Positions 26,034-29,592 of a stretch of DNA of 64,000 nucleotides are shown piece after piece. The notes below the pieces were generated by a model, which did not search any database, was not told the origin of the DNA, and worked only from the letters and a program-made list of their open reading frames with translations. The position numbers and the translations under genes are program-made. Origin of the DNA: Gammaproteobacteria bacterium (lineage in GTDB: Bacteria; Pseudomonadota; Gammaproteobacteria; SZUA-229); assembly GCA_029882355.1 (NCBI GenBank), contig JAOUKV010000015.1, forward strand, positions 1 to 64,000. The letters run 5' to 3'. How positions within the stretch are numbered: the stretch's first letter is position 1; each line of letters begins with the position of its first letter.

Positions 26034-28736
26034 ATGTCAGATTCTGAAAATCCGCCCATTATCCTGGTCGATGGCTCGTCCTATCTTTACCGTGCCTACC
26101 ACGTGCCGCAGCTGCAGCGCCTGACCAATGCCAAAGGCGAGATGACCGGTGCGGTCTACGGCGTGATCAATATGCTGCGCAAGCTGCGTGACGACTACCA
26201 GCCCGAATACATGGCGGTGGTGTTCGATGCCAAGGGCAAGACCTTCCGCCACGAGCTTTATGAAGACTACAAGGGCACGCGACCGACCATGCCGGATGAC
26301 CTGCGCAACCAGATCGAACCGTTGCATGAGCTGGTGAAAGCGCTGGGTTTCAAGCTGATTATGGTGTCGGGCGTGGAAGCCGATGATGTCATCGGCACAC
26401 TGGCGAAACAGGCCAGCGCACAGGGTAAGGAGCTGCTGGTTTCCACCGGCGACAAGGACATGGCGCAGCTGGTCAGCCCGCATGTCACACTGATCAACAC
26501 CATGACCAACAAGCTGATGGATGAAGCCGGTGTCGAAGAAAAATTTGGGGTGAAGCCGGAGCAGATTATCGACTACCTGGCGCTGATGGGCGACACCTCG
26601 GACAATATTCCCGGCGTGCCCAAGGTCGGGCCAAAGACCGCGGCGAAATGGCTTGTGGAATATGAAACGCTGGATAATCTGGTCGAGCACGCCGAGGAGA
26701 TCAAGGGCAAGGTTGGTGAGAATCTGCGTGGTGCTCTGGATCAGCTGCCGCTGTCGAAAGAGCTGACCACGATCCTTTGTGACCTTGAACTGGAAGAATC
26801 GCTGGACGATTTAAAAATCGGTGCCGCCGATAAAGGCACACTGGAAAAAATTTACACCGAAATGCAATTCCACAAGTGGCTGGATGAACTTGCTGGCGGG
26901 GTTGAAGAGAAAGCCGAAAGGGCGAAGCAGGCAGTGAATTATGAAACCGTGCTCGACAAAAAATCCTTCGATGCCTGGATTAAAAAATTAGACACAGCCG
27001 AGCTGATCGCCTTCGATACTGAAACCACCAGCCTGGATTATCTGCAGGCACGCATTGTCGGTGTCTCGTTTGCGGTCGAAGAAAACGAGGCGGCCTATGT
27101 GCCGTTCGGTCACGATTATCCAGGAGCGCCCGAGCAGTTAGATGAAGCGACTGTGTTGGGTGCGTTGAAACCCATTCTCGAAGATGCCACAAAAGCCAAG
27201 CTCGGCCAGAATTTAAAATACGACGCGCACATTTTGCAGAACCATGGCATAAAAATGCTGGGCATCGCCGAAGACACCATGCTGGAATCCTATGTACTGG
27301 ATTCAACCCAGCGCCATGATATGGACAACATGTCACTGCGCGTGCTTGGCCACAACACCATCCATTTTGAAGACATCGCCGGTAAGGGTAAAAAGCAGCT
27401 GACCTTTAATGAGATTGCACTGGAAGAAGCCGGGCCATATGCCGCCGAAGATGCCGACATTACTCTGCAGCTGCACAAAGTGCTGAGTACAGAATTAAAA
27501 GCGAATGACCGTCTGATGAAAGTTTATCGCGAAATTGAAATGCCGCTGTTGCCGGTATTGCAGTCTATCGAACGCAATGGCGTAAAGATCGATGTCGCCA
27601 TGCTCAACAAACAGAGCAAGCAGTTGCAGACGCGCATGGCCGAAGTTGAGAAGCAGGTGTTCGAAGCCGCTGGTGAAACGTTTAACCTGGCCTCACCAAA
27701 ACAGCTGGGCGTGATTTTATTTGAGAAGCTTGAAATACCGCCGGTGAAAAAAACCAAAACCGGTCAGTACTCCACCGCCGAAGAAGTTTTGCAGCAACTG
27801 GCGGAAGATTACGAAATTCCAAAAATGATTCTCGAGCACCGCAGTCTGAGCAAATTAAAATCGACCTACACCGACAAGCTGCCGCTGCAGGTTGATGCCG
27901 ATACTGGTCGTGTGCACACTTCTTATAACCAGACTGGTGCAGCCACCGGACGTTTGTCCTCGTCCGATCCCAATCTGCAAAACATTCCGGTGCGCAGTGA
28001 AGAAGGCCGTCGCATTCGACAGGCCTTTATCGCCGATGACGGCAAGTGCCTGGTCGCCGCCGACTATTCACAAATTGAACTGCGCATCATGGCGCACCTC
28101 TCGCAGGATGAAAGTTTATTAAAAGCTTTTGCCGAAGGCATCGACGTGCATAAGGCAACCGCCGCCGAAGTCTTCGGTGTGCCGCTGGACGAAGTCGAAA
28201 ACGAACAGCGCCGTGCCGCCAAGGCAATCAACTTTGGCCTGATCTACGGCATGTCCGCTTTCGGCCTGGCCAAACAACTGGGCATCGGGCGATTTGAAGC
28301 GCAGGACTATGTCGACCTTTATTTTGAACGCTACCCCGGCGTAAAAAATTACATGGACAGCACGCGCGAGAAAGCCGCCGAACAGGGTTTTGTTGAAACG
28401 GTTTATGGTCGCCGTTTGTACCTGCCGGAAATTAATGCACGCAACGCCATGCGCCGGCAATACGCGGAGCGCACCGCGATCAATGCGCCTATGCAGGGCA
28501 CGGCAGCAGACATTATTAAACGCGCGATGATTAATGTGGATAACGCACTGCAAAGCAGCAAACTCGATGCTATCGTTGTCATGCAGGTGCACGATGAGCT
28601 GGTGGTGGAAGTGGCCGAGTCGCAGGTCGAGCAGTTATCTAAATTGCTGCGAACCAATATGGAATCGGCGGCTGACCTCAGCGTGAATCTGGTGGTGGAT
28701 ATCGGTGTCGGTAGTAACTGGGATGAAGCGCATTAA
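26034..28736 (+). CDS. polA: DNA polymerase I
   Basis: 900 residues, full length. The 5'-3' exonuclease/flap domain (1-about 290) starts IILVDGSSYLYRAYH. The 3'-5' exonuclease (about 310-500) keeps its acidic residues in LIAFDTETTSLD and YAAEDADITL, so proofreading is probably active. The polymerase domain (about 520-900) has motif A VAADYSQIELRIMAHLS, the O-helix RRAAKAINFGLIYGMSAFG and motif C VMQVHDELVVEV. It repairs and matures lagging-strand DNA. The gene is G+C-rich relative to flanks and is followed by the probable sRNA. Confidence 0.97.
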   Translation: MSDSENPPIILVDGSSYLYRAYHVPQLQRLTNAKGEMTGAVYGVINMLRKLRDDYQPEYMAVVFDAKGKTFRHELYEDYKGTRPTMPDDLRNQIEPLHELVKALGFKLIMVSGVEADDVIGTLAKQASAQGKELLVSTGDKDMAQLVSPHVTLINTMTNKLMDEAGVEEKFGVKPEQIIDYLALMGDTSDNIPGVPKVGPKTAAKWLVEYETLDNLVEHAEEIKGKVGENLRGALDQLPLSKELTTILCDLELEESLDDLKIGAADKGTLEKIYTEMQFHKWLDELAGGVEEKAERAKQAVNYETVLDKKSFDAWIKKLDTAELIAFDTETTSLDYLQARIVGVSFAVEENEAAYVPFGHDYPGAPEQLDEATVLGALKPILEDATKAKLGQNLKYDAHILQNHGIKMLGIAEDTMLESYVLDSTQRHDMDNMSLRVLGHNTIHFEDIAGKGKKQLTFNEIALEEAGPYAAEDADITLQLHKVLSTELKANDRLMKVYREIEMPLLPVLQSIERNGVKIDVAMLNKQSKQLQTRMAEVEKQVFEAAGETFNLASPKQLGVILFEKLEIPPVKKTKTGQYSTAEEVLQQLAEDYEIPKMILEHRSLSKLKSTYTDKLPLQVDADTGRVHTSYNQTGAATGRLSSSDPNLQNIPVRSEEGRRIRQAFIADDGKCLVAADYSQIELRIMAHLSQDESLLKAFAEGIDVHKATAAEVFGVPLDEVENEQRRAAKAINFGLIYGMSAFGLAKQLGIGRFEAQDYVDLYFERYPGVKNYMDSTREKAAEQGFVETVYGRRLYLPEINARNAMRRQYAERTAINAPMQGTAADIIKRAMINVDNALQSSKLDAIVVMQVHDELVVEVAESQVEQLSKLLRTNMESAADLSVNLVVDIGVGSNWDEAH

Positions 28737-28802
28737 GTTGGTTTTCGCATTTTTTTCTTTTTACACTTCATTCCTCAATTTCGACCATCTATCGAGAGTG
28801 TT

Positions 28803-28830
28803 TTGACTTCTTCGCCGCTTTGTTTTTAAT
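28803..28830 (+). promoter_or_regulatory. sigma-70-type promoter of the polA-engB sRNA
   Basis: TTGACT (28803-28808) and TTTAAT (28825-28830) are separated by 16 bases; five of six bases match the consensus in each box. Transcription should start near 28837. Confidence 0.55.
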
Positions 28831-28836
28831 TAGGGC

Positions 28837-28963
28837 TGCATCCTTTTTGTACTGCGCCACCGTTTGGCGCAGGCTTGTCCACTTTTTGGACGGGTTGATG
28901 ATGGAGCCGATTTTCCCCAATCCGGTTCCACTTACTGCCCGGTCGTAATGGCCGGGTATTTTT
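28837..28963 (+). ncRNA. probable small RNA at the Spot 42/ErsA position
   Basis: About 127 nt between a good promoter and an intrinsic terminator, in the gap between polA and engB. Enterobacteria encode Spot 42 and pseudomonads encode ErsA at this same locus. Predicted structure by eye: hairpin TGCGCCA/TGGCGCA (28851-28870), hairpin GTCCA/TGGAC (28878-28892), an unpaired purine-rich stretch GGGTTGATGATGGAGCC, and the terminator stem CCCGGTC/GGCCGGG with loop GTAAT. No reading frame of note exists. The position and signals are seen; homology to Spot 42 in sequence is not evident. Confidence 0.6.
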
Positions 28964-28964
28964 T
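28938..28964 (+). terminator. intrinsic terminator of the sRNA
   Basis: Seven-base stem CCCGGTC/GGCCGGG (one G-U pair), five-base loop and a run of six T interrupted once. It ends at the engB stop codon, so it also bounds engB transcription from the other side. Confidence 0.7.
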
Positions 28965-29592
28965 ATTCGGGCGCTTTTGTTTCCAGTTCCATCCAGCTGT
29001 TTAGTTTCCTGACCAGCTCATCAAGCCCATCCTTTTTCAGCGAGGAAAAAGTCTGAATAGTGGCTTCATAACCTTCTTCTTTCAAAAACTTACGGCATTT
29101 GAGCAGGGTTGCCTGCTGGGGGCCACGTTTAAGCTTGTCGGACTTGGTGAGCAAAACATGGGCAGGTATTTTGAAGTGGTCGCACCAGTCCAGCATCTGT
29201 AAATCGAATTCTTTGAGCGGATGACGGATGTCCATGATAACGACCAGGCCACGTAGGACTTCCTGTTGTTCCAGATATTGGCCCATCAGTTTCTGCCATT
29301 CTTCTTTGACGGCAAGGGGGACTTTGGCGAAGCCGTAGCCGGGCAAATCGACCAGGCGGCGCTTTTCGTCCAGTTCAAAGTAGTTGACCAGACGGGTGCG
29401 GCCGGGTGTTTTGGAGATTTTGGCCAGGCCTTTGTTGTCACATAAGGTGTTGATTGAGCTGGATTTTCCTGCATTTGATCTGCCGGCAAAGGCGACTTCG
29501 ATGCTTTCGCCTTTGGGGAATTGTTTAGGTGCCGCGGCGCTGATCAGAAATTTGGCCTGACGGTAGTAGTGATTGATGGCTTGATTGCTCAT
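28963..29592 (-). CDS. engB: ribosome biogenesis GTPase EngB/YsxC
   Basis: 209 residues. G1 GRSNAGKSSSINTL (about 32-45), G3 VDLPGYGFAKV, and G4 LTKSDKL define the EngB/YihA family, a cytoplasmic GTPase needed for assembly of the large ribosomal subunit. The gene converges on polA and the sRNA, as in many gammaproteobacteria. Confidence 0.96.
   Translation of the reverse strand: MSNQAINHYYRQAKFLISAAAPKQFPKGESIEVAFAGRSNAGKSSSINTLCDNKGLAKISKTPGRTRLVNYFELDEKRRLVDLPGYGFAKVPLAVKEEWQKLMGQYLEQQEVLRGLVVIMDIRHPLKEFDLQMLDWCDHFKIPAHVLLTKSDKLKRGPQQATLLKCRKFLKEEGYEATIQTFSSLKKDGLDELVRKLNSWMELETKAPE

Follow-up and report, generated by a model that had tools for sequence, protein, structure and literature searches.

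A predicted, divergent member of a class-wide C-loop small RNA family in the polA–engB gap of a gammaproteobacterium

We analyzed a 64,000-nucleotide stretch of a gammaproteobacterial genome (contig JAOUKV010000015.1 of assembly GCA_029882355.1), referred to below as the window, and focused on the gap between two convergent genes. The upstream neighbor, homologous to Escherichia coli polA, occupies positions 26034–28736 of the forward strand, and engB (also yihA or ysxC) lies on the reverse strand at 28963–29592, with 226 bases between the polA end and position 28963. A preliminary description had placed a promoter, three stem-loops and an intrinsic terminator in this gap, and their presence was confirmed by coordinates, folds and conservation. 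The forward strand contains a −35 box TTGACT (28803–28808) and, after a 16-base spacer, a −10 box TTTAAT (28825–28830), each matching the consensus at five of six positions; a generic scanner missed this promoter because it demands an A at the second −10 position. In the alignment of congeners, all six positions of the −35 box and the whole of 28825–28831 are invariant, compared with 31% of the spacer, 24% of the sequence further upstream and 29% of the 5′ leader. Boxes with the same 16-base spacing were found at the same place in the gaps of most relatives.

About eight bases 5′ of the −35 box, at 28784–28794 of the forward strand, lies a conserved element, ACCATCTATCG (consensus ACC..Y.RTCG), that is a candidate regulator site. 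Within the genus, 14 of the 20 positions in 28783–28802 are invariant vs. 11 of 46 further upstream. The distance of the element to the −35 box is fixed, and it takes the same position in loci L014, L020, L022, L026, L028, L032 and L073, while no second exact site of the combined element and −35 pattern was found elsewhere in the genome. The element is palindromic in some relatives (TACCGTTCGTCGGT) and present in two copies in L026.

With the start placed 6–8 nt past the −10 box, the predicted small RNA (sRNA) spans 28837–28964 of the forward strand and is ∼128 nt long. Hairpin 1 (28852–28872) consists of stem halves CUGCGCCA and UGGCGCAG around the loop CCGUU and lacks the loop motif GCCC seen elsewhere in the family introduced below. 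Hairpin 2 (28873–28895) has retained its stem through compensatory change, and its loop motif CCUCCC has been lost in the genus. Hairpin 3 (28902–28930) carries a conserved C-rich loop, UUCCCCAA, with CCCC at 28915–28918, and is the proposed site of the seed. The intrinsic terminator (28936–28964) is formed by the hairpin GCCCGG..CCGGGU at 28936–28958 and a run of six T, which touches the engB stop codon (28963–28965). In the predicted fold nearly the whole RNA is paired, with the exception of the 5′ leader, which is U-rich; a U tail ends the molecule. Folding of 28839–28966 gave −54.9 kcal/mol in comparison with −34.0 ± 3.4 for dinucleotide shuffles (z = −6.1), and across tests z ranged from −4.6 to −6.1, with none of 200 shuffles being equally stable. 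The conservation of the promoter, the stems and the terminator in relatives argues against a chance arrangement.

The Rfam search of the window at curated cut-offs returned no match for the sRNA stretch. Below the cut-offs, the osmY model scored 22.7 bits (E = 0.003, cut-off 46.9), which we took as a chance likeness of two hairpins and a terminator, as we did the remaining weak Rfam matches in the window. No tRNA was detected. A 16-codon ATG frame runs over hairpin 3, but we rejected it as a small protein, its start codon being absent, as judged by eye, in genomes G001 and G006.

Plain DNA similarity reached four members of the same genus and elsewhere gave weak matches. We fetched engB from 58 genomes and read the adjacent polA–engB gaps; other genera of the window's family contained a much clearer RNA there, with a hairpin 1 of the form GCGCU-(G/A)(U/A)AGCCC-GGCGC, a hairpin 2 loop CCUCCCUGA, a hairpin 3 loop UCCCCAA and then a terminator. 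Carriers identified in an engB scan included Ectothiorhodospira mobilis, Sedimenticola, Candidatus Thiodiazotropha, Spiribacter and metagenome-assembled genomes of Ectothiorhodospiraceae; Ectothiorhodospira has two copies, located next to engB. The closest records of that scan were gammaproteobacterial metagenome-assembled genomes, so that the host probably belongs to an uncultivated lineage. From such sequences, we built two covariance models that both left out the window's genus, one (R1) from 19 aligned relatives and the other (R2) from 91 class-wide sequences. The sole R1 match in the 64-kb window was at 28849–28965 (52.8 bits, E = 6.9e-13), and the same sRNA was the sole match in the whole genome (E = 3.1e-11). 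R2 matched it with 47.3 bits (E = 1e-10); the E-values of both models are rough owing to a short calibration, yet the margin is large. The three congeners scored 59–70 bits with R1, making the window's copy the lowest of the four.

We assessed base pairing in the 19-sequence alignment, which was built without structure information, using a structure derived from folds. In this alignment, 92.8% of cells pair in comparison with 31–46% when the partners are slid, and 21 of the 31 pairs show two-sided changes. In the alignment of the window's genus and two relatives, hairpin 2 is fully paired (100% of cells) even though its sequence has been almost wholly replaced, five pairs having changed on both sides; these counts lean towards the structure because the alignments were fitted to the model, a bias from which the 19-sequence alignment is free. 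A lack of stem conservation in relatives had been named beforehand as evidence against the gene, and the comparison of the gap found the stems conserved, with compensatory changes.

Across the class, the members share a pattern of loop motifs: hairpin 2 contains CUCCC in 77 of 91 members, hairpin 3 contains CCCC in 86 and the terminator loop contains CCCC in 46. Apical loops rich in C are the hallmark of the class-wide family, with CTCCC in the second hairpin and CCCC in the third, as in Xanthomonas sX13. The window's genus departs from this pattern in that all four species have lost the C motifs of the first two hairpins, while the UCCCCAA loop of hairpin 3 is kept in all four. Membership of the window sRNA is supported by its significant match to models built without its genus, its adjacency to polA and engB and its loop 3 CCCC; CUCCC in loop 2, missing from the window and the three congeners, is not universal in the family and therefore was not required. 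The window RNA is, by computation, homologous to the family, with the structure, promoter and terminator conserved and the UCCCCAA loop retained, and its genus carries a reduced variant of the class-wide C-loop family.

The family is widespread. R1 matched 43 of the 54 genomes of the window's family and 139 of the 370 sampled class genomes, representing 106 of 273 genera. Among the 87 R1 loci that we read, a few genomes giving two, polA and/or engB were found within ∼2 kb in 73 (26 of 27 and 47 of 60 in the two sets); 13 R1 loci in other genomes lay away from both genes, and one, L114, showed just a neighboring cytochrome gene. In three genomes (G018, G038 and G041), the RNA and polA are encoded on opposite strands, which indicates an autonomous gene. 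Tandem copies occur in several genomes: L100 has five, L132 and L133 have four each, and L107, L134, L138 and L206 have two.

The reading of loci yielded further observations. Strong or moderate family matches off polA and engB occurred in L103, L113, L117, L135, L138, L139, L147 and L157, the match in L117 being near an apparent hslU (by eye) and L138 holding two copies plus a tmRNA. In L015, L025 and L036, the orientation of the sRNA between the two genes is reversed, making it codirectional with engB, and its structure is kept. Tandem arrays in the polA–engB region span 2059–2802 in L100, 2050–2804 in L132, 2059–2994 in L133 and 3654–3964 in L206, and in several genera the loop motifs differ between the copies of an array. 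One member of the window's genus (G004, loci L006 and L012) has kept the promoter region of the sRNA with an unrecognizable body, a possible gene loss. In L088, a c-di-GMP-I riboswitch (2037–2121, 77.9 bits) lies between the family sRNA and polA.

Among the described RNAs, sX13 is a known virulence regulator of Xanthomonas. Its gene is chromosomal and lies downstream of polA; the RNA contains three loops rich in C and represses mRNAs having G-rich motifs near the start codon, loop 2 (CCCC) being needed for the repression of two reporters (PMC3771888). It was reported to be exclusive to Xanthomonadaceae and independent of Hfq, and the same study raised the question of whether similarly acting sRNAs are encoded at the polA loci of other bacteria (PMC3771888). 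Both sX13 (RF02232) and the window RNA lie directly 3′ of polA, form a chain of stable hairpins and carry a CCCCAA loop in the pre-terminator hairpin, but C-rich loops are found in three hairpins of sX13 and in one of the window RNA. By order and sequence, we read loop 2 of sX13 (UCCUCCCCAAG, in the pre-terminator hairpin) as the probable counterpart of hairpin 3. The window falls below the curated RF02232 cut-off (50 bits), with no match even at E = 10, and we rejected direct membership. Over 276 genomes, the same model recovered three true sX13 genes and, below its cut-off but at E ≤ 1e-4, five further matches. Four of these are polA-downstream RNAs of the C-loop family, one of them in G010, a genome of the window's own family (36.9 bits, E = 3e-5); the remaining match, in G161, lies away from polA. 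In the reverse direction, R2 matched the real sX13 genes with 32.4–36.2 bits (E = 6e-7 to 6e-6).

A similar connection was found for anti-hemB (RF02837). Its Burkholderia representative ncS04 is an expressed 105-nt RNA supported by RACE and Northern blots, was reported to bind Hfq and showed no significant change across the tested conditions; some members of the sRNA set to which it belongs have anti-RBS stretches (PMC5688073). The CCUCCCUGAGCGGG hairpin and the terminator of anti-hemB match the polA–engB C-loop family, whereas its CCUCCC loop is missing in the window RNA and, in the anti-hemB carriers of f135, the gene lies away from polA. For most relatives outside the genus, RF02837 scored higher on the polA–engB sRNA than anywhere else in the genome (E down to 4e-10), and several class members passed the curated cut-off. 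The window itself scored 18.1 bits (E = 0.05) against a cut-off of 49.5, and direct membership was rejected.

The position in the polA–engB gap is shared with two further sRNAs, ErsA (Pseudomon-1, RF01719) and Spot 42; the latter, E. coli spf, also agrees in strand. The proposal of an sRNA gene at the Spot 42/ErsA position was supported by these loci, and the lack of likeness to Spot 42 that had been noted by eye was borne out by covariance searches with the Spot 42 (RF00021, cut-off 80 bits) and ErsA (cut-off 50 bits) models, neither of which matched the window. ErsA depends on sigma22, and its first two hairpins are separated by an unstructured domain rich in U (PMC8575079). RF01719 found, at E ≤ 1e-4 in 276 genomes, one full-score ErsA and sub-threshold matches in G207 and G309, both to polA-downstream members of the C-loop family, and R2 matched ErsA itself weakly (20–27 bits). 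Spot 42 differs from the family in not being based on C-loops; R2 scored 20.4 bits on spf, a marginal value near background, and when 370 genomes were searched for Spot 42, a single weak match (G361 of f135, 34 bits) and no intermediate linking Spot 42 to the family came to light.

As the window fails the curated cut-offs of all four Rfam families, we do not file the sRNA under any of their names. The sub-threshold matches of the sX13, ErsA and anti-hemB models fall on one family, however, and these three therefore look like its branches, most strongly so for sX13 and anti-hemB and less securely for ErsA. No paper joining sX13, ErsA and anti-hemB was found in the literature collection searched, and the C-loop RNAs have apparently not been described before as one family. 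The preliminary description's suggestion of a mere positional analog was not supported: by computational evidence, the window RNA is homologous, more than analogous, to the described polA-locus sRNAs, as a reduced form of the class-wide polA–engB family. We regard as evenly balanced the wider proposal that the polA–engB sRNAs, comprising sX13, anti-hemB, ErsA, the window's and possibly Spot 42, share a C-loop ancestor that was rewired lineage by lineage as loop motifs were lost or gained and copies were duplicated in tandem, with the window's genus as a naturally minimal form that has just one seed loop.

All computational evidence points to the window stretch being a real, independently promoted sRNA gene. 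We consider it probable that 28837–28964 encodes an independently transcribed, trans-acting sRNA, a divergent member of the polA–engB C-loop family that includes anti-hemB, sX13 and probably ErsA, and that its loop 3 is the seed for G-rich ribosome-binding sites. Expression would be driven by the RNA's own sigma-70-type promoter, and a factor acting at the ACC..TCG element might tune it. From the loop action of sX13 and the properties of ncS04, we infer action in trans through UUCCCCAA: loop 3, as the one remaining seed, would pair through UCCCCAA with ribosome-binding sites that contain G-rich, GGGG-type sequence, thereby blocking translation and silencing the mRNAs. Hfq, the gene for which is present in the genome, might act at the U tail. 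The idea that the RNA has targets of its own could not be substantiated: a scan for TTGGGGA just before ATG in the four congeners found no excess over a reversed-pattern control and no conserved start site, and the sole instance identical in three species is antisense within a coding sequence.

The stretch could also be read as the transcription terminator of polA with extra 3′ UTR hairpins and no separate gene. Lying 100 bases past polA on the same strand, it has a good terminator at which polA read-through could end. We find this reading very improbable, as it is opposed by the invariance of the −35 and −10 boxes in the genus next to a varying spacer (31%) and upstream sequence (24%), by RNAs on the strand opposite to polA in three genomes, by family stems and loops conserved over ∼100 genera and by the up to five tandem copies in one genome.

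Two other explanations were weighed. One sees an Hfq-type sRNA in the style of Spot 42 and ErsA, which pairs through unstructured regions and has targets unrelated to GGGG ribosome-binding sites. The shared locus, the presence of hfq and the U-rich leader and U tail fit this, and with two of its three C-rich loops gone, the genus could be abandoning the C-loop mechanism; neither RF00021 nor RF01719 matches, however, nearly all of the RNA save the 5′ leader is paired, and conservation of that leader is low (29%) whereas all four species retain CCCCAA, leaving the explanation unlikely. The other holds that an ancestral C-loop sRNA is a decaying relic, losing its function in the window's genus. 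It draws on the loss of the hairpin 1 and 2 C motifs in all four species, on the congener without a recognizable body and on the window's copy scoring lowest of the four; but stems kept through compensatory change, and promoter boxes and a loop 3 kept in all four species, would not be expected of a relic, and we consider decay improbable. Our preferred reading is a divergent family member with loop 3 as its probable seed.

For the class as a whole, C-loop sRNAs are found at the polA locus in more than a third of the sampled genomes, which answers the first half of the question asked by the sX13 authors with yes, and in most of the carriers checked the RNA has no Rfam annotation. The data also tie sX13 and anti-hemB, and less securely ErsA, to one family. 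The window's genus, having lost two C-rich loops and retained the third, singles out loop 3.
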